Shown here piece after piece: positions 24,530-37,825 of a stretch of DNA of 64,000 nt (positions within the stretch are counted from its first letter, which is position 1; every line of letters begins with the position of its first letter). The DNA is from Synechococcales cyanobacterium GL140_1_metabat_312. Its GTDB lineage: Bacteria; Cyanobacteriota; Cyanobacteriia; Leptolyngbyales; Leptolyngbyaceae. The stretch covers positions 1 through 64,000 of the forward strand of contig JANXWB010000094.1 of the NCBI GenBank assembly GCA_025351345.1. The letters are read 5' to 3'. The translations under genes were made by a program, and so were the position numbers. The notes beneath the pieces are model-generated. The model was not told the origin of the DNA. It saw only the letters and a program-made list of their open reading frames with translations, and searched no databases.

Positions 24530-25648
24530 TCAAAAGAATTTTCCCAAGAAGCCTTCAACGCCACTTTTCCCAACCCGATCGCCTTGAATTTTAGCGAGTT
24601 TTTCTAACAATTCCCGCTCTTCAGACCCCACCTTTTTCGGAATATCAACCGTCACCGTCAGCAGATGATTTCCACGACTAACCGCATTTCCTAAGCGTGG
24701 CACGCCTTTGCCATCTAACGTCAACACCGTTCCAGGTTGAATACCGGCTGGAATCTCGATCTCTTCATCGCCATCGACAGTCTTTACCTCAAGGCGCGAT
24801 CCTAAAATGGCTTGTAAATAGCTGATTTTTAGTTCAGACAGAATGTTAATACCATCGCGCTGAAAATTGGAATCTTCATTCACAAAAAGATAGACATACA
24901 AGTCGCCCGCTGGCCCACCCCGCATCCCACTGTCGCCTTCATTCGAGACCCGTAGCCGCGTACCGTTATCAACTCCAGCCGGAACGGTGATTTTCAGCTT
25001 TTTACTCTTCTGAACCTGACCATTACCGCCACAGTTTTCGCATTTGTCCTCAATAACTTGCCCCACTCCAGCACAGGTTGGACAAGTTGCGACTTGGGTA
25101 AAACTCCCAAACGGTGTTCGAGTTGCACGACGGACTTGTCCCGAACCAGAGCAGGTTGGACAAGTTCGTGGACGAGTTCCAGCTTTGGCTCCGCTCCCTG
25201 AACAAACACCGCAGCCTTCTAAGTGGCTAATTGCAATTTCGCGTTCTTTGCCAAAAATTGCATCATGAAAATCAACTTTAAGATCTAAACGAAGATCATC
25301 TCCGCGTACAGGTCCGCCCCGACGACGACCTTGTTGCTGCTGTTGTTGTCCGCCAAAGCCATTAAAGAAGCTTTCAAAAATGTCAGCGAACCCGCCCATG
25401 TCGCCCGGATCTTGATATCCACCGCCCCCACCGAGTCCAGCTTCACCATATTGGTCATAGCGCGATCGGGTTTCGGGTTCGGACAAGACTTCGTAGGCGC
25501 GGTTAATTTCCTTAAAGGTGTCCTCAGCGCCCGCGTCTTTATTGACATCGGGGTGATATTTTCGTGCAAGACGACGGAATGCCTTCTTAACATCGTCTTG
25601 ATCTGCGTTTCGAGCAACGCCAAGGGTTTCGTAATAATCACGCGCCAT
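24530..25648 (-). CDS. dnaJ: chaperone DnaJ (type I Hsp40)
   Basis: A 372-residue co-chaperone that delivers unfolded clients to DnaK and stimulates its ATPase. The J-domain contains the HPD motif in [12 protein letters not shown] Gly/Gln-rich linker ([14 protein letters not shown]) follows. The zinc domain has all four repeats: [24 protein letters not shown] and CENCGGNG. The C-terminal substrate domain ends EGFLGKFF. It belongs to the leftward grpE-dnaK-dnaJ cluster, with a gap of about 190 bp after dnaK. Confidence 0.97.
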
Positions 25649-25839
25649 AGGATCAGGGGGGCTGGGGATGAGAAAATAATTAAGGGTGGTCTATTAGGGT
25701 ATCGAACAAAAATGCTCAATGAAAGACCAGTTGAGGGAGGGAAAACCGACCCGGATTATACCAGTCTAGATTGAGCATTTGATATGGAATGATGGCATTC
25801 CCAATCGAACTCCTCCAATCGATCGATATGAACTGGGGC

Positions 25840-27903
25840 TTAGTCTATTGCCTCGTAGTCCGCTGTAACGGTCGGATCTTCATCAAAATTATTGCCTCCG
25901 AAAGGATTTCCATCTTTCTCTCCGAAAGGATTCAAATCAACCCGAACCGTTTCATCCTGATCCGTGTCTAAATCCTTTAGGTCAAATGCAAAGGGGTCGT
26001 TAGTGGCTGGTGCCGTAGTGGCTGATGCAGCAGTGGGCGCAGCTTGTGACTTAGGTGGGGTTGGTGGTGTGGCTGGTGCTGACGATGCGCTTGGATCTTT
26101 TTGGTAAACCGCCGATCCAAAGGCATACAGTACTTGTTGCATTGCTTCTAACTGGGACTTGAATTCCCTAAGAGAAATTTTTGAATCTCCGATCGAAGCC
26201 CGCAGAACAGCAACCTTTGTCGCTGCATCTAGCTTTAGATCTTGGCTCAGGGAGTCACCATTGTCTCGAAGAATATTTTCGTACTGATATAAAATAGTTT
26301 CAGCTCCATTCTTGAGTTCAACCAACTCACGGCGTTGACCATCCTCTTCACCAAATAGTTCTGCTTCCTTACGCATCCGCTCAACTTCATTGATATTGAG
26401 TCCACCGCTGTTGGTGATCTCGATGCTTTGTTCGCTACCCGTGCCCTTGTCTCGGGCGGATACTTTTAGAATTCCATCGGCATTAATTTCAAAGGAAACC
26501 TCAATTTGAGGAACCCCACGAGGTGCCGGAGGAATGCCCGTAAGTTGGAACTTGCCAAGGCTTTTATTGTCTCGTGCCATAGCCCGTTCACCCTGAAGCG
26601 GATGAATTTCTACAGACGTTTGCCCATCCGTTGCGGTGGAAAAGACTTGGGTTCTGCTGCTCGGGATAGTGGTGTTACGTTCGATCACTTTCGTAAAGAC
26701 TTCGCCCAAGGTTTCAATCCCCAATGACAATGGTGTCACATCTAGCAACAGCACGTCTTTAACTTCACCCCCTAAGACTCCCGCTTGGATGGCTGCACCC
26801 AAGGCAACGGCTTCATCTGGGTTGACCGACTTGTCTGGCGTTTTGCCATTACAGAAAACTTTGAGCGCTTCCTGCACGGCTGGAATTCGGGTTGAGCCGC
26901 CCACAAGAAGAATCCGATCAAGTTCATCAACCCCCATGCCTGCATCTTTGATCGCTTGGGCCATGGGTTCTATGGTTCCTTGGACCAGTTTTGCCACTAG
27001 TTCTTCAAATTTGGCACGGGTCAACTCCACTTCTAGATGCTTAGGCCCAGAGGCGTCTGCTGTGATGAAGGGTAGGTTGATGGAAGTACTCAGGGTGCCA
27101 GATAGTTCAATCTTGGCGCGTTCAGCCGCTTCTCTCAATCGCTGTAGAGCCATTTTATCGCTGGATAGATCAATTCCATCCTGCTGTTTGAAGGTGTCAG
27201 TAAGCCAGCGCACAACTGCCGCATCGAAATCGTCGCCGCCGAGATGGTTGTTCCCGGAGGTCGCTTTTACTTCAAAAACGCCATCGCCCAATTGAAGAAT
27301 CGACACATCAAAGGTTCCGCCGCCTAAATCAAAAACTAGGATGGTCTGCTCTTGATCTAGCTTGTCCATCCCGTAGGCTAGGGCGGCAGCAGTTGGCTCA
27401 TTGATGATCCGCAAAACTTCGAGACCCGCTATTGTCCCGGCATCTTTGGTGGCTTGACGTTGGGCATCGCTGAAATAAGCTGGGACCGTGATTACTGCTT
27501 GACTAACCGTTTCGCCGAGATAACTTTCTGCATCCTGCTTCAGTTTTTGCAGCACCATGGCCGAAATTTCTTGTGGCGTATAGTTCTTACCACGAATGCC
27601 TACATCAACAGTGGCATCTCGACCTTGTACGCACTTGTAAGGTACGCGAGTCCGCTCTTCAATGGTGTCTTCCCACCGCCGACCAATGAAGCGCTTAATG
27701 CTAAAGACAGTATTTTCTGCATTGGTGACAGCCTGACGTTTCGCCAGTTGTCCCACAAGCCGATCGCCCGCCTTGCCAAAACCAACAATACTGGGCGTTG
27801 TCCGTCCGCCTTCCGAATTAGCAATCACCGTGGCTTGTCCGCCCTCAAGGACCGCAACACAACTGTTGGTGGTGCCCAAATCAATACCAATAACTTTTCC
27901 CAT
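25840..27903 (-). CDS. dnaK: chaperone DnaK (Hsp70)
   Basis: An ATP-driven chaperone of 687 residues. The ATPase begins [20 protein letters not shown], with the phosphate-2 motif [13 protein letters not shown] and the adenosine motif [13 protein letters not shown]. The substrate-binding domain follows ([15 protein letters not shown]). The C-terminal linker after about residue 600 is rich in Ala/Pro/Thr ([18 protein letters not shown]), followed by an acidic end. The linkage to grpE and dnaJ fits the cyanobacterial DnaK2-type copy. No CIRCE operator (TTAGCACTC-N9-GAGTGCTAA) was found upstream. A gap of about 190 bp separates it from grpE. Confidence 0.98.
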
Positions 27904-28094
27904 AACAGTTTTTTAGGCGTAGGTAATAAGGCATGAAGCCAAGGTGAATATCTAAATTGAGCTTAGGTAAAATCAATTATCAAGCTCAATGTAGCAGGAG
28001 ATCACGAATGATTGTGAAGTCTCCCACTACACAATATTCCTCAACTCTTGACAATTTCTAACAAATGACCTTAATCATTTTTCAAGTTTTGATC

Positions 28095-28790
28095 TTAGTC
28101 TTGCGTAGACGAGGTTTCATCCTTTTCGGGTGCAGCCGCAACTTGAACTTGAGCATGGCGCAATACCCGATCGCCCATCATGTAGCCTCGCACAAGTTCA
28201 GCCATAACGGTTCCTTCCGGATACTCGGAGGTCGGTTGACGCAATAGGGCTTCATGGAGGTTAGGGTCAAATTGCTTGTCTTTTGCGTTCATGGGAGAGA
28301 CTCCAATCCGCTTTAGGCGGCCCACCATGTCTTTGTAAATCCCTTGATAGCTGTTGTGGACAGCAGTTTCAGCATCACTTTCGACTTTGAGCTGCGATCG
28401 GGCACGTTCAAAATTGTCAACAACGGCCAGCAATTCGGTGAGAGTCGAGATCTTGACTTGAACTTCCAGTCCTTCCTTTTCCTGCTGAGTTCGTCTGCGG
28501 AAGTTTTCAAAATCTGCGGCTAATCGGAGATATTGGCCTTTGGAGTCTTCATTTTGGCCTTTAAGAGCTTCACATTCACGCTCTTTTGAAGCATAGGACG
28601 ATCGTAATTCCATGAATGCCGCTTCATAGTCCGTCGTTTCCTCAAGCTCATCTTGAGTTGAAGCCACAGACGCATTTGCCGTCACAGTCTCGGAACTTAG
28701 ATGCGGCTCAAGCCCAGACTGGATGACCTGATCAGCTTGGGGATCGTCTAAGAGTTCTTCTACCGATTCAACTTGCTGCTCTTCACCCAT
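28095..28790 (-). CDS. grpE: nucleotide exchange factor GrpE
   Basis: A homodimeric exchange factor of 231 residues that releases ADP from DnaK. It has an acidic, low-complexity N-terminus (MGEEQQVESVEELLDDPQAD), a long coiled coil with YLRLAADFENFRRRTQQEKE, and the C-terminal beta-domain text FDPNLHEALLRQPTSEYPEG with GYMMGDRVLRHAQVQV. It is the first gene of the leftward chaperone cluster and is divergent from pilB, sharing a 189-bp upstream region. No CIRCE-type operator is visible there. Confidence 0.96.
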   Translation of the reverse strand: MGEEQQVESVEELLDDPQADQVIQSGLEPHLSSETVTANASVASTQDELEETTDYEAAFMELRSSYASKERECEALKGQNEDSKGQYLRLAADFENFRRRTQQEKEGLEVQVKISTLTELLAVVDNFERARSQLKVESDAETAVHNSYQGIYKDMVGRLKRIGVSPMNAKDKQFDPNLHEALLRQPTSEYPEGTVMAELVRGYMMGDRVLRHAQVQVAAAPEKDETSSTQD

Positions 28791-33528: not shown

Positions 33529-34158
33529 ATGACTGTCGAGAAAGAAGATTACGAAGAATTGTTGTCGATTTATAGTTCGACGTTGGATGCTATCGAGCTA
33601 CTCCGTTTACATCGTCCATATTTGGAACTCATGCCAAGTATGCGACGATCAGAGGAGAGTTTAATTACAATGCCGCTTCCGATCGTGAAGCTCCGGAAAT
33701 CTCAACCGATGCCTGGGGTTCCATCTGGAGCAATCAACATATCTGAAGCAATGCAACTTCCTTGTGATCTGGCCTTGTTGATGTGTGATCCCGATTGGAA
33801 GATAAAAACTGGGCGCGAAATTTTTGTTTTTATCCATCGTCCCGATGAAGATCTTTCAGATCTGTTGGGACGTTGGCGACAAACGCAAGTTTTACTGACG
33901 AGAGACTATGAATGGATTTTTCCGCTGCGCTATCAGCACATGCTCAATGAAGGCGCAGATAAAATTTACCCGTTATTTGTTCTATTTAATGAGTCTCCTG
34001 AACGAATTAGACGTGGACTAAGTGGTGCTCATTTGCCATTTGTTATTCAAACCACGATCGCAACTCAGGAATCTCTTGCTGTGTTCGACTCGGCTCCAGA
34101 GTATTTAGAGGATCTCTTGATCGAAACTGAAGATCCTTCAGGGCGTGAACTGTCTTAA
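33529..34158 (+). CDS. conserved protein of unknown function in the pil row, 209 aa
   Basis: Not recognised. It starts 11 bases after pilC, so it is very likely in the same transcript. It is a soluble protein without signal peptide or membrane helices. It begins MTVEKEDYEELLSIYSSTLD, has DLALLMCDPDWKIKTGREIF in the middle and an acidic C-terminus. The GREIFVFIHRPDEDL segment looks like a beta-strand core. Its position suggests a role in pilus assembly or motility, but nothing in the sequence itself proves that. Confidence 0.72.
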   Translation: MTVEKEDYEELLSIYSSTLDAIELLRLHRPYLELMPSMRRSEESLITMPLPIVKLRKSQPMPGVPSGAINISEAMQLPCDLALLMCDPDWKIKTGREIFVFIHRPDEDLSDLLGRWRQTQVLLTRDYEWIFPLRYQHMLNEGADKIYPLFVLFNESPERIRRGLSGAHLPFVIQTTIATQESLAVFDSAPEYLEDLLIETEDPSGRELS

Positions 34159-34174
34159 ACGTCTAAAACGATCA

Positions 34175-34642
34175 TTACTTGGACCTGTTTTGTCGCTTCA
34201 GCTTTGCACTCCGCGCCCCAACCACTTTTAATGAAGGGTCACAAGGCATTCCGACAGGCTGCAACATCTGGTATTGCCGTTCATCTTCTAACAGCTTTAG
34301 CTCTTCGTAGGCAACCCAGTGAATGCAATCAACGGGGCAGGTTTCTATTGCTTCTTGAATTAGATCTTGCGAATCCCCATCTTGCCGAATCACTCGCGAT
34401 CGCCCATAATCCGGTTCAATATAAAACGTATTTCGAGCCACATGGGAACAGTACCGACAGCCAATACAGGTTCCCTCATCCACGTAAACTCCACGCTGAG
34501 CTAACAGGCCCCCAAGTTCTGGTTCGTAGCCCGATCGTCCATCTGAAGCTCCCCCTTGAAACCCAAGTTCTGGCTCTAGACCCGATCGTTCAGGAAAATC
34601 AGTGATTTCATTAAACGAAAGTTGTGGAGAGACTTCAGACAT
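34175..34642 (-). CDS. [4Fe-4S] ferredoxin-like protein next to ycf35
   Basis: A 155-residue electron-transfer protein. The cluster ligands are C-X2-C-X2-C in DEGTCIGCRYCSHVARNTF plus a distal CP in EAIETCPVDCIHWV, so one [4Fe-4S] cluster is predicted. The N-terminal 50 residues are atypical, with a repeated SG-x-EPELG motif (SGLEPELG, then SGYEPELG), and the basic C-terminus is ARSAKLKRQNRSK. No partner enzyme is obvious. It is encoded just downstream of ycf35 and a DUF2997 gene on the same strand, an arrangement I recall from other cyanobacteria. Confidence 0.87.
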   Translation of the reverse strand: MSEVSPQLSFNEITDFPERSGLEPELGFQGGASDGRSGYEPELGGLLAQRGVYVDEGTCIGCRYCSHVARNTFYIEPDYGRSRVIRQDGDSQDLIQEAIETCPVDCIHWVAYEELKLLEDERQYQMLQPVGMPCDPSLKVVGARSAKLKRQNRSK

Positions 34643-34677
34643 GACCTCGACACTCCCAAATTGAGCAAAATCTTAGA

Positions 34678-35064
34678 CTAAGCACTCCAACGTTGAAGCA
34701 CAAGCCTAATGGTTCCATCGTCAGATCGCTGCTGTTCAGCTATGTTAAAACCCTGCTGCGATGTTTCCCGAAGGATAGTATTATAGGCGTAGCGCTGAGT
34801 AATTTGCTTTAGAAACCGATCGACTGAACTAGCTTGGTTCCAAAATTGAAGGTCAGTCACCATCTCATGTGACACTCCGTTCCAGATAAAACCGATGTCA
34901 TAGCCATTCTCCTGCTCTATGACAATTTCTGCTGACTCAGTCATGCCTTTATAGCCACGCACAGGGCATGGACCTTCTTTATAATCCATCCCCAAATCTG
35001 AAAGCGTTACTTTCAACATCGGAAGGTTGCGAAGCTGCGTTTTAATTTGGCTAAAATGCGACAT
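34678..35064 (-). CDS. ycf35: Ycf35 / DUF1257 protein
   Basis: A 128-residue protein of the Ycf35 family, also encoded in some algal plastids, with unknown function. It reads MSHFSQIKTQLRNLPMLKVT, then GPCPVRGYKGMTESAEIVI, GYDIGFIWNGVSHEMVTDLQ and ends VLQRWSA. I use the ATG at 35064 (MSHFSQ), the family's usual start; a longer frame up to 35091 adds nine unlikely residues. It sits between the DUF2997 gene (57 bp upstream) and the ferredoxin gene. Confidence 0.92.
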   Translation of the reverse strand: MSHFSQIKTQLRNLPMLKVTLSDLGMDYKEGPCPVRGYKGMTESAEIVIEQENGYDIGFIWNGVSHEMVTDLQFWNQASSVDRFLKQITQRYAYNTILRETSQQGFNIAEQQRSDDGTIRLVLQRWSA

Positions 35065-35121
35065 AACGGTGTAGTTGTGAAGGGTGGACAATATAAAATT
35101 ATCTTAGCGCACAGACCTTGG

Positions 35122-35343
35122 CTACCAGTTGCTTGTGGATGAATCCTGAGCATTATTGGCAACAAACGTGGTCTGTTCCTGATGATGAGCAAAATATTCC
35201 GATGTGGTTTCCTGTTTAAGGACTAAACCAAGCTTGGCTTCGATTGCTGCCGTCACCTCCGCACAAGAAAACCCAGTAATCCCAGTCACTTTTTCTTGAA
35301 CTCGGCCATCAGGATAAATCACAAATTCGAGAGTTTCCATCAT
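35122..35343 (-). CDS. DUF2997 small protein
   Basis: A 73-residue protein starting MMETLEFVIYPDGRVQEKVT and continuing GITGFSCAEVTAAIEAKLG, the pattern of DUF2997, whose members are found next to Ycf35 in cyanobacteria. The start is one of two consecutive ATG codons (35341-35343 or 35338-35340). It contains one cysteine in the conserved segment. No function is known; a partner role for Ycf35 and the ferredoxin is inferred from context. Confidence 0.82.
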   Translation of the reverse strand: MMETLEFVIYPDGRVQEKVTGITGFSCAEVTAAIEAKLGLVLKQETTSEYFAHHQEQTTFVANNAQDSSTSNW

Positions 35344-35688: not shown

Positions 35689-37089
35689 TTAGTATGCTCG
35701 CTTTACACTAACCTCGCCATTTGCAAAGAAGAAAATGCGCACTCCATAGGGTTGGCTATTTTTGTTAGGGAGTGGCGGGGCGATCGTTTCACCCTTCTTG
35801 GGCACAACTGCCTGAGCCGCAGATAAACCTTCTCCTTCTGGCGCTATAGAAATAACGGTTCCGTCAGCAGACATGTTCATTAGATAGCTTATGTCTTTAG
35901 ACAATTTGTCAGGTGGAGTCCATTTGGTGGGGACTTTGGATTGAATGACTTCAATCTGATTACTGAGATCTCCTAAAAGCGGTGGGGCTGGTTCACTTTC
36001 TGCATTTGTATTGGCATCCGAGGAGGTTCTTGAACTAGGAGTTGTGACGATCGGTGCAGTAGCCGGATTGGGTGCTGAGGGTTGGACTTTTCTCATTAGA
36101 GATTGAGGGCTGGTGGATGGTATTCCTGACTTGTTCTTTCGAGATTGATTCCCAATTATTTCAGTCGCCTCTGGTTGGGGTGCTACTGGAATGATCAATT
36201 TGTTTTCTTTGGGGTTATCCGTTGAAGGCGAGGGTGTTAAAGATGGCGGTGTATTTTTATCGAGGGTGACAGAATTAGTTGTGAGCGGAGAATTTGGGCT
36301 GATCGCGATCGGTGGTGGCTGAATACCAGGAAGAGTACTAGGTTGGATTAAAATTGGAATACTAGGAGTTGGCTGAGGAATAGAGGGTGGGGTTAGCCGC
36401 TGATCGCTGGCCTGAGATTGAGATGCAATTAAAGTGGGGGTGGGTTTTGGATCGAACTGTCGAAGGACTGTTGCGGTGACTCCAACAGAAATCAACGATA
36501 ATGCTGCAATTTTGCCCCAAGCTACAGGCGATCGCATCCAAGCCGTATCCCGATTGAGCGTAGGAATAGCTAAGGTTTCACTACTGTGTTCATCTAAAAC
36601 AGAAGCTAAGTCCGCAAGCTGTGTGGACGAAAGTGTAAGGGTACTTTCTGAGCGGTCGGAGACGATCGGACCAAGATAAAGGGTGTGGGAAAGCAAGCCT
36701 TTGGGCTGAAGGGAGATAGTTTGGTTAGAAAATTCTGGGAGAAGGATACCCGTGAGATCCTTGCTGTTCTCCGATCGTTCAAGGTTTTGGGATTGACTGA
36801 GAAAGCATTGAATGTAGATTGTAACGGCTTCGGTCAGGGCTTCTAGTTTGAGCCGATCGCCTCGCAATGTGGTCCATTGGTCTTCACTTACACGCGGATC
36901 CTCAAATTTGAGTAGAAACCGTTGATTTTTAAGAGCGAGTTTTTTGGCCCAGTGCGATAAAGCAGATGGGTTGGCGGAAATTTCCAGCTTACAAGTAGGG
37001 GCGCTGTACTGCCGCACTATGGACGATCCAGGACTTTCCGGAGATGTGAGTGTCGATGGATCAAGTTCGGTATTTTGGGAAACGGTCAT
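35689..37089 (-). CDS. DUF4335-type membrane protein
   Basis: A 466-residue cyanobacterial protein. The N-terminal 150 residues carry the DUF4335 pattern: RQYSAPTCKLEISANPSALS, FLLKFEDPRVSEDQWTTLRG and DRLKLEALTEAVTIYIQCFL. A single transmembrane helix is IAALSLISVGVTATVL near residue 205. A Pro/Ser/Thr-rich stretch of about 150 residues follows, then a C-terminal part ending GVRIFFFANGEVSVKRAY. I chose the ATG at 37089 (MTVSQN). Its function is unknown. It is co-oriented with the DUF3038 gene 136 bp upstream. Confidence 0.8.
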   Translation of the reverse strand: MTVSQNTELDPSTLTSPESPGSSIVRQYSAPTCKLEISANPSALSHWAKKLALKNQRFLLKFEDPRVSEDQWTTLRGDRLKLEALTEAVTIYIQCFLSQSQNLERSENSKDLTGILLPEFSNQTISLQPKGLLSHTLYLGPIVSDRSESTLTLSSTQLADLASVLDEHSSETLAIPTLNRDTAWMRSPVAWGKIAALSLISVGVTATVLRQFDPKPTPTLIASQSQASDQRLTPPSIPQPTPSIPILIQPSTLPGIQPPPIAISPNSPLTTNSVTLDKNTPPSLTPSPSTDNPKENKLIIPVAPQPEATEIIGNQSRKNKSGIPSTSPQSLMRKVQPSAPNPATAPIVTTPSSRTSSDANTNAESEPAPPLLGDLSNQIEVIQSKVPTKWTPPDKLSKDISYLMNMSADGTVISIAPEGEGLSAAQAVVPKKGETIAPPLPNKNSQPYGVRIFFFANGEVSVKRAY

Positions 37090-37225
37090 GGCAACGGCTA
37101 AGAACAACTGCGGAGAAAAATTAGGTGATGACGAGATAACAATTAAAAATTAGGGAGCGGCGCTGTTAGTCTAACGTATCGAATTCCCTAAATGGGAACT
37201 GTGCAGACGAGATCTAGATGCTGAT

Positions 37226-37825
37226 TTAGGAAATAAGAGACCGATCAAGTAAGGCCGACCATAGTCTTCTAGATCCTTGGCTGCTGCTGTAAAACAATAG
37301 ATCAATCAATAGTTTTAGGGCTAAGTGTGTGAGCAGGTCAGGCGTGGGGAGATCAGCATTGTCCATGCGATCTTGGTAGGTATTTTGAAATTTATCCAGG
37401 TAGTCACCCAGAATTGGGTCTTGGTGAGGTGCTCGGTTTTGTTCGGTGAGTTGTTCAAGTAAGGCTATTGCATGACGAATTTCACTGTTATGAGCTTTGG
37501 CCAGGTGGCAGCTAATTAGGGTTAGGGCACGAGCTTCTTCGACATCTAGCTTTTTTCGACCGCTTTGACCCTTGCGTTGGGGATTCGATTGCCGTAGTCG
37601 CCACAGGGAGACTCGATCGGCCACGATAGTTTCTAATCCCAAGTCTATGGCGGCTTGAAGCATGGCTTCTGAACTGATGTTAGTAATTGATTCTATGGCT
37701 AGAAGAACCAAGTCAAGCTGGGTTTTGATGTTGTCCAGATGTTCTGCATCTGGAACGATGATGTTGAGACTTAAGGCATCTAGAGATGAATCAAGAGCTG
37801 TGGTGGGTGCGATCGTAGAGGTCAT
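37226..37825 (-). CDS. DUF3038-type protein
   Basis: A 199-residue soluble helical protein of a cyanobacteria-specific family. Recognisable text is NIKTQLDLVLLAIESITNIS, then LRQSNPQRKGQSGRKKLDVE, EARALTLISCHLAKAHNSEI and the C-terminal LLFYSSSQGSRRLWSALLD. The families DUF3038 and DUF4335 are frequently neighbours, as here. There is no transmembrane helix. Function is unknown. It is divergent from apcE, whose leader region begins beyond its start. Confidence 0.8.
   Translation of the reverse strand: MTSTIAPTTALDSSLDALSLNIIVPDAEHLDNIKTQLDLVLLAIESITNISSEAMLQAAIDLGLETIVADRVSLWRLRQSNPQRKGQSGRKKLDVEEARALTLISCHLAKAHNSEIRHAIALLEQLTEQNRAPHQDPILGDYLDKFQNTYQDRMDNADLPTPDLLTHLALKLLIDLLFYSSSQGSRRLWSALLDRSLIS

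Follow-up and report, generated by a model that had tools for sequence, protein, structure and literature searches.

The trio of small genes considered here encodes a DUF2997 protein, Ycf35 (DUF1257) and a [4Fe-4S] ferredoxin of the Fed7 type, and it lies in a stretch of 64,000 nucleotides (hereafter the window) from contig JANXWB010000094.1 of Synechococcales cyanobacterium GL140_1_metabat_312 (GCA_025351345.1, the source genome). The closest described system appears in a review of 2014 by Cassier-Chauvat and Chauvat. There the grouping is printed as 'Cluster g = duf2997; ycf35; fed7', with fed7 in a tricistronic operon, and a published table gives Synechococcus JA-2-3B'a, JA-3-3 and UCYN-A without fed7 (PMC4284462; this and the other papers are cited by their accessible passages). 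The transcripts of ssl1263, fed7 and ycf35 have been described as SigD-dependent (PMC8875361). No molecular role for Ycf35 or DUF2997 was found in the accessible text of the open-licence PMC literature searched; likewise, in the passages on cluster g both proteins stand without a role, and no AAA+ ATPase or DUF paralogue is tied to the cluster (PMC4284462). The trio as such is already known; what is new is that DUF1257 and DUF2997, where they occur away from this cluster, mostly have as neighbour one family of AAA+ ATPases, that of Ycf46 (Slr0374), and often an Hsp70-like protein, in cyanobacterial paralogues as well as in two further bacterial phyla and an archaeon.

The published properties of Fed7 concern its redox partners and its stress response. 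It accepts electrons from ferredoxin-thioredoxin reductase (FTR), binds the FTR catalytic chain and the DnaJ-like protein Sll1384 (two-hybrid, Synechocystis) and belongs to a pathway leading to glutaredoxin 2; fed7 is dispensable for photoautotrophic growth, its mutant tolerates iron limitation less well, as it does oxidative, metal and salt stress, and the gene is up-regulated in high light and when iron or inorganic carbon is scarce, and down-regulated by H2O2 in Synechocystis (PMC4284462). Related to it are the DnaJ-Fer proteins of green algae and plants (CDJ3-5, DJC76/77/82), whose Fer domain is of cyanobacterial origin and of which CDJ3-5 interact with Hsp70B and Cge1 (PMC3564930). The likeness consists in a cyanobacterial Fed7-type ferredoxin domain working with the Hsp70 system; however, theirs is fused to a J domain, whereas the ferredoxin of the window is free-standing, matches ferredoxin families alone in Pfam, and has no J domain beside it in the trio. 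Since a comparison of Sll1384 with the tetratricopeptide-repeat (TPR) type J proteins of Arabidopsis revealed no similarity (PMC3720927), Sll1384 is not established as the source of the plant J domain. The link of Fed7 to the Hsp70 world, through Sll1384 and DnaJ-Fer, is independent of gene neighbourhoods.

In the window the three genes follow each other on the minus strand in the order DUF2997, ycf35, fed7. The DUF2997 gene occupies 35122-35343 (Pfam PF11211, E 3.9e-21; conserved METLEF start at 35340), ycf35, of class I as defined below, 34678-35064 (PF06868, E 5e-40; conserved MSHF start at 35064, as against the upstream TTG at 35091 in the list of open reading frames), and the ferredoxin gene 34175-34642 (Fer4_13, E 5.5e-19), with gaps of 57 bases between DUF2997 and ycf35 and 35 bases between ycf35 and fed7. 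An earlier reading of the window from its letters alone (the sequence-only reading) had recognized three small co-oriented genes for a ferredoxin, Ycf35 and DUF2997, and these assignments were confirmed by the profile matches; its description of the module as undescribed has to be withdrawn, since the same three genes in the same order constitute cluster g (PMC4284462), of which the window is one more instance.

The grouping was followed through 244 genomes of the phylum, 114 of them from class Cyanobacteriia and 130 from other classes. Fed7 was present in 111 of the 114 Cyanobacteriia genomes, and in all 111 the genes DUF2997, DUF1257 and Fed7 kept the same order on the same strand (the count took the DUF1257 rows judged class I plus that of genome G177, other paralogue rows being left out). 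The distance from DUF2997 to DUF1257 reaches 1.7-1.9 kb in G109 and G119, with the order kept, and the arrangement is conserved from the 1.6 Mb genomes of family f19 to genomes of over 8 Mb. The small genomes of f19 are presumably those of Prochlorococcus and marine Synechococcus. Among the other classes Fed7 gave just two weak matches (E 9e-5 and 6e-4), DUF1257 was found in 10 genomes and DUF2997 in 38. The trio grouping in Cyanobacteriia is far beyond chance, and the conserved neighbourhood that the sequence-only reading had proposed to look for across cyanobacteria is consistently there in this class.

The source genome contains a second, short DUF1257 gene directly behind an AAA+ ATPase gene, and neighbourhoods were therefore compared across the whole family, within 8 kb around DUF1257 or DUF2997, an AAA being counted when it reached at least 150 bits to the Ycf46-type family. 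In the tree, the grouping of DUF1257 agrees with the neighbouring genes: class I (with Fed7), class II and class III are each set apart from the rest by a single branch (with support of 91/99, 93/79 and 94/93 for 19, 14 and 4 rows), the deep branching order being unresolved because of the few columns. A common class II arrangement is AAA-DUF1257-DUF2997-(GrpE-like)-Hsp70-like. Class III is AAA-DUF1257, and in 101 of 105 genomes its DUF1257 gene follows the AAA gene within 1 kb (the others being G773, G782, G792 and G802; one row was taken for each of 105 of 116 genomes, with the ATPase rows of 102 genomes).

Outside class I, 22 cyanobacterial loci had an AAA gene at 18, an Hsp70-like gene at 14 and DUF2997 at 18, and 14 loci of sister classes had AAA at 4 and Hsp70-like at 1; both sets were hand-chosen from DUF1257/DUF2997 rows, some for close coordinates, so that their DUF2997 rate is biased, while their AAA and Hsp70 content was unknown at the time of choice. 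All listed places were read for the phylum of locus L084 (labelled Myxococcota by the tree tool; 17 loci with AAA at 16, DUF2997 at 16 and Hsp70-like at 8) and for the Verrucomicrobiota search (10 loci with AAA at 6, DUF2997 at 10 and Hsp70-like at 1). The three class III loci scanned had AAA at all three and DUF2997 at none; the single loci L039, L040, L041 and L052 together gave one AAA and one Hsp70-like gene, and six plasmid and phage records three AAA and one Hsp70-like gene. Fed7 was found within 8 kb in none of the groups outside class I. As an internal control, 74 class I loci, which belong to the best 80 matches of a pattern scan and are not a random sample, had Fed7 at 74, Hsp70 at 2 and AAA at 0. 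Beyond the cyanobacteria DUF1257 is rare: it occurs in 7 of 194 genomes of the Verrucomicrobiota search and, for the phyla of L084, L040 and L041, in 14 of 198, 1 of 2 and 1 of 99 genomes, respectively.

The viral relatives agree with this separation of the DUF pair from the ferredoxin. Among the best 80 of 139 relatives of a P-SSM2 protein, taken with flanks of at most 4 kb, DUF2997 is present at 77 loci and stands directly upstream of DUF1257 in 75 of the 75 that have room upstream, and none of the 80 shows Fed7, AAA or Hsp70. The fixed companionship with a dedicated ferredoxin, as claimed by the sequence-only reading, holds within Cyanobacteriia and is not supported as a rule for the family at large. 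In cyanophages P-SSM2 and P-SSM7 the DUF2997 and DUF1257 genes overlap (L007:3802-4378 and L008:3832-4381); this pair, also seen in the viral contigs L238-L317, is annotated 'hypothetical' in both phage records and is a candidate auxiliary gene pair.

The same results bear on the proposal that the trio is a stand-alone electron-transfer module, in which Fed7 would reduce Ycf35 and DUF2997, or their substrate, with no ATPase or chaperone involved. The order fixed in 111 of 111 Fed7 genomes speaks for it, as do the three-gene operon of fed7 (PMC4284462) and the SigD dependence of ycf35, ssl1263 and fed7 (PMC8875361). A possible redox site could be offered by the cysteine of DUF2997, which is present in all 157 distinct stretches examined (144 match G..xC...T, and each of the 13 others has the Cys) and lies in GFSC in the window; yet this cysteine is kept with or without ferredoxin company. 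Moreover, loci of DUF1257 and DUF2997 outside the cluster are without Fed7 and mostly with an AAA+ ATPase, and no enzyme family was recognized in Ycf35 or DUF2997 by profile scans and a search of PDB sequences. We consider this proposal quite unlikely. Of the two findings that the sequence-only reading had named as speaking against it, rare co-occurrence of the three families and another partner of the ferredoxin, the second is in print, as the accessible text names FTR, Sll1384 and glutaredoxin 2 outside the trio (PMC4284462). Since the bacterial paralogue loci mostly have AAA instead of Fed7 and the partners of Fed7 extend beyond the trio, the term electron-transfer module is probably too narrow; more of the findings are accounted for by a module for chaperoning or remodelling that is gated by redox state.

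The ATPases of these loci are by sequence one family: a protein from the archaeon Borrarchaeum is 48% identical over 488 residues to a cyanobacterial class III ATPase, its N-terminal part included, and the class II ATPase is 40% identical to a protein from the phylum of L084. No Ycf46-family ATPase was found over the whole window; the source genome (G000) has three, on contigs C99, C74 and C79, away from the trio. That of C74, the second and unlinked one, has 507 residues, an AAA domain nearest to Cdc48/VCP in the PDB sequence search and a neighbouring gene that resembles YidC by eye; that of C79 is more distant.

The class III pattern, an ATPase followed by a short DUF1257, fits a described operon. 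Slr0374 is Ycf46, and the operon slr0373-slr0374-slr0376 reacts when iron, sulfur or nitrogen is deficient and to salt, high light and oxidative stress (PMC7496141), as well as to low inorganic carbon (PMC7283877), a stress regime that overlaps with that of fed7. Judging from the conserved gene order, slr0376 would be the DUF1257 gene. The operon differs from the trio in that no ferredoxin is named in it in the accessible text, and the three class III loci scanned were without DUF2997 within 8 kb.

The P-loop of the class III ATPases has a cysteine, GVPGCGKS, in 24 of 24 proteins from cyanobacterial loci, and the tryptic peptide that ends in the P-loop has 12 residues with Cys tenth in 23 of the 24; this Cys is residue 270-272 where the frame starts at the apparent conserved Met, other frames having extra upstream codons. 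In Slr0374, Cys269 (peptide 260-271) was reported to be 91.6% reduced in the light and 78.3% in the dark (PMC13214033). Because peptide length and position of the Cys fit exactly, and the numbering fits within 1-3 residues, Cys269 is likely the P-loop cysteine. The equivalent P-loop cysteines of VCP and NSF are redox-sensitive. In the C74 ATPase, in class II and in most other AAA of these loci this position is Thr. In three small sister-class genomes (L148, L149 and L150) a Ycf46-family AAA+ gene with the P-loop Cys is preceded, at a distance of about 0.6 kb, by DUF2997, and no DUF1257 was found near these genes.

Taking the neighbourhoods and the published partners together, we tentatively favour, at a little short of an even chance, that a remodelling machine built on a Ycf46-family AAA+ ATPase has Ycf35 and DUF2997 as small accessory subunits and is coupled by Fed7 to redox state and to a J-protein. 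Besides the gene company, this view draws on the loss pattern described below, on the DUF pair in viruses without ferredoxin, on the stress regime that fed7 shares with the operon of slr0374, on the joint decay of ycf35 and ycf46 in the plastid of Nothogenia (PMC5057469) and on the light response of Cys269 in Slr0374 (PMC13214033). Ycf35 and DUF2997 together would serve as adaptor or regulator of the Ycf46-family ring, and at loci with a linked Hsp70-like gene the Hsp70-like protein and the ring would hand clients to each other. In the trio, Fed7 would take the place of the linked ATPase gene and tie the step to FTR and the J-protein, while the ATPase would come in trans from a Ycf46-family gene elsewhere in the genome; Fed7 might in this way couple client handling to the photosynthetic redox state. 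We infer an in-trans binding of the ATPase by class I Ycf35 and DUF2997, a gating of this binding by Fed7 and, as the client, a photosynthesis-linked protein.

A wider version of this view is possible though doubtful: Ycf35 and DUF2997 could be general accessory subunits of a Ycf46-family, often Hsp70-like-containing, machine in bacteria and at least one archaeon, and the cyanobacterial version could have become light-dependent through Fed7, which, with its tandem docking peptides, would stand in place of a local ATPase gene, and through the FTR chain, the J-protein and possibly the P-loop Cys of Ycf46. If true, it would explain why ycf35 and ycf46 have decayed together, both being pseudogenes in the plastid of the red alga Nothogenia (PMC5057469), and why cyanophages carry a ycf35-duf2997 pair. 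Both also belong to the set of genes in whose presence marine red algae differ from freshwater ones (PMC5940233). In plastid genomes ycf35 and ycf46 have long been orphans, and placing Ycf35 and DUF2997 with the Ycf46-family ATPases would give both genes one function, redox-gated protein remodelling; it would also link the published ferredoxin pathway to that function and point to the gene pair carried by cyanophages.

The distribution of ATPase and trio was compared in 16 chosen genomes, where Ycf46-family AAA were counted at E<=1e-40. Each of the seven f19 genomes tested has exactly one, and all seven carry class I DUF1257 together with Fed7. Two were counted in G143 and in G014, and none in G147 and G183. 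The last two are, together with G177, the Cyanobacteriia genomes without Fed7 (3 of 114). G147 has no psaA/psaB match and G183 a stop-ridden remnant only, whereas G177 and G143, the latter of the same genus as G147 and G183, have intact psaA/psaB. G147 gave a single weak match to DUF2997 (E 2e-7) and none to DUF1257; in G183 DUF1257 matched twice (best E 2e-10) and DUF2997 was absent; G143 has the trio, intact photosystem I genes and its two ATPases. Therefore the small genomes keep the trio and one ATPase, and the two genomes without intact photosystem I genes keep neither Fed7 nor ATPase. The absence of Fed7 from both genomes without intact photosystem I genes supports a tie of the trio to photosynthesis, in line with the photosynthetic or metabolic role supposed by the sequence-only reading. 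The same loss, in which class I Ycf35 is missing as well, would fit a trio dedicated to assembling or repairing a photosystem or some other Fe-S enzyme, in which Ycf35 would be the scaffold and Fed7 would donate or sense the cluster, and so would the sensitivity of fed7 mutants to iron limitation (PMC4284462). This is very improbable in our view: G177 has intact psaA/psaB and yet no Fed7, and according to the accessible text fed7 is dispensable for photoautotrophic growth (PMC4284462).

G177 is informative in another respect, as its DUF1257 and DUF2997 genes lie apart, it has two Ycf46-family ATPases, and its non-class-III DUF1257 falls in class II of the tree, so that class I Ycf35 and Fed7 are both missing. 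Since it has the ATPases, no Fed7 and a class II DUF1257, the ferredoxin is separable from the core. The separate genes of G177 might be taken to mean that the trio reflects co-regulation only, that is, Fed7 acting in the FTR-glutaredoxin and J-protein pathway and ycf35-duf2997 serving a separate stress function under a shared promoter. The published partners of Fed7 outside the trio (PMC4284462) and the viral contigs that carry the pair with no Fed7 nearby agree with this; on the other hand, the near-perfect order, kept in f19 at 1.6 Mb as in genomes larger than 8 Mb, exceeds the usual effect of co-regulation, and in G177 class I Ycf35 and Fed7 are missing together. We regard co-regulation as the whole explanation as unlikely.

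The ferredoxin of the window has the Fed7 layout, CxxCxxC...CPxxC preceded by two copies of RSGxEPELG (34508-34588, minus strand), with Cys59, 62, 65 and 102 as cluster ligands by pattern and an extra Cys106 in a CPVDC motif; their spacing is that of C53/56/59/96/100 in published Synechocystis Fed7 (PMC4284462). Among distinct Fed7 proteins CxxCxxC is present in 101 of 101 and CPxxC in 100, and EPELG occurs twice in 97 of 101 and once in 4; in the collected loci no open reading frame lacking CxxCxxC contains EPELG. For all 23 f19 genomes the match to the Fed7 of the window sets in somewhere from residue 15 to residue 37, in 14 of them after the first repeat copy (residues 19-27). The RSGxEPELG repeat is a conserved tandem motif in the otherwise variable N-terminus of Fed7. 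The sequence-only reading was right about the repeat; given that EPELG is kept over 101 Fed7 proteins, it is a conserved motif and not the oddity that it was taken for. Possibly the tandem copies are a docking peptide. In DUF1257, MSH occurs in 155 of 161 distinct open frames and is invariant at the start of an alignment of 40, so that the free N-terminus is probably functional.

Several observations weigh against a Ycf46-family machine. The first is that no AAA stands beside the Fed7 loci (0 of 74; one weaker match, at L055, has 99 bits and is below the 150-bit threshold), and the link of trio and AAA therefore rests on paralogy, phyletic pattern and published work. Within 8 kb, no AAA was seen at 4 of the 10 loci from the Verrucomicrobiota search and at 10 of the 14 from sister classes, several of the contigs being short. 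The loss evidence comes from two genomes of one genus in which much else is lost, and the weak matches to DUF2997 in G147 and to DUF1257 in G183 remain. H2O2 lowers fed7 (PMC4284462), whereas the slr0373-slr0374-slr0376 operon responds to oxidative stress (PMC7496141). The light-responsive cysteine would, from its peptide coordinates, belong to the class III ATPase, and the second ATPase, of the type kept by f19, has Thr in the source genome. Finally, Ycf35 is given a confident fold by AlphaFold2 (predicted local distance difference test, pLDDT, 91.8) that has no informative relative, and the DUF2997 model is poor (pLDDT 63.7). Foldseek gave at best E 0.075, to BamC, for the Ycf35 model, and since VIA-align returned unrelated folds at Z 4.3 to 5.9 (among them KA1, BamC, Bcs1, AHSA1-like and StARkin), nothing is claimed from the fold search; sequence relatives in the PDB were not found either, the best E being 0.36 for Ycf35 and 0.32 for DUF2997.

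The case for a chaperone is weaker than that for the ATPase and also counts on the negative side. The Hsp70-like proteins of the paralogue loci are divergent and score far below the DnaK and HscA cut-offs. The Pfam Hsp70 cut-off is passed by L119 and L042 (strongly), L189 and L193; L191 and L194 are below it, and L188 and L195 have no Pfam Hsp70 match at E<=0.01, L188 having a weak HscA-type NCBIfam match. In the phylum of L084, six of the eight Hsp70-labelled genes were scanned with Pfam and two exceeded the Hsp70 cut-off. The GrpE label means at least 17 bits to one plasmid protein, and of seven so labelled proteins scanned, one (L154) passed the Pfam cut-off, four were sub-threshold and two had no match. 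For this reason the label 'Hsp70-like' is used here, nothing rests on GrpE, and the argument is built on the ATPase first.

ClpB/DnaK-type bichaperone systems combine Hsp70 with an AAA+ motor. The pairing of an Hsp70-like with an AAA+ gene at part of the DUF1257 paralogue loci is alike; however, the motor here has one AAA domain, which in the C74 ATPase is nearest to Cdc48/VCP and not ClpB, and the Hsp70-like proteins are divergent. Bacterial neighbourhoods with Hsp70 and GrpE are also shared by the conflict systems described in eLife in 2020 (PMC7159879), but those are centred on a GTPase or MoxR-vWA. A defence function of the trio was considered and rejected, as the three trio proteins have no match to PADLOC models at E<=1 and DUF1257 is absent from the accessible main text of PMC7159879.

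The window also holds a canonical set of chaperone genes (24530-28790), on the minus strand like the trio and at a distance of 5.9-10 kb from it, with GrpE at 28095-28790, DnaK at 25840-27903 (over the NCBIfam DnaK cut-off) and DnaJ at 24530-25648. It was not used as evidence, because Hsp70 occurs within 8 kb at just 2 of 74 other class I loci.

Some further members of the family deserve mention. A 525-residue frame at L146, tried as a Rosetta-stone fusion of DUF2997, was rejected as spurious, since Pfam finds the terminal DUF2997 alone and the upstream part is GC-rich and of low complexity. A divergent DUF1257 of a Treponema succinifaciens plasmid (L003:6001-6408) lies within a contractile phage-tail-like gene cluster, and L039, a Spirochaetales metagenome-assembled genome, has a protein 97% identical to it. 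In the window the trio is adjoined by DUF4335 and DUF3038 genes (35689-37825, minus strand), both of function-unknown families. On its other side an open reading frame of 209 residues (33529-34158, plus strand), with no Pfam or NCBIfam match at E<=1, comes after three genes that resemble, by eye, type IV pilus motor and membrane proteins.

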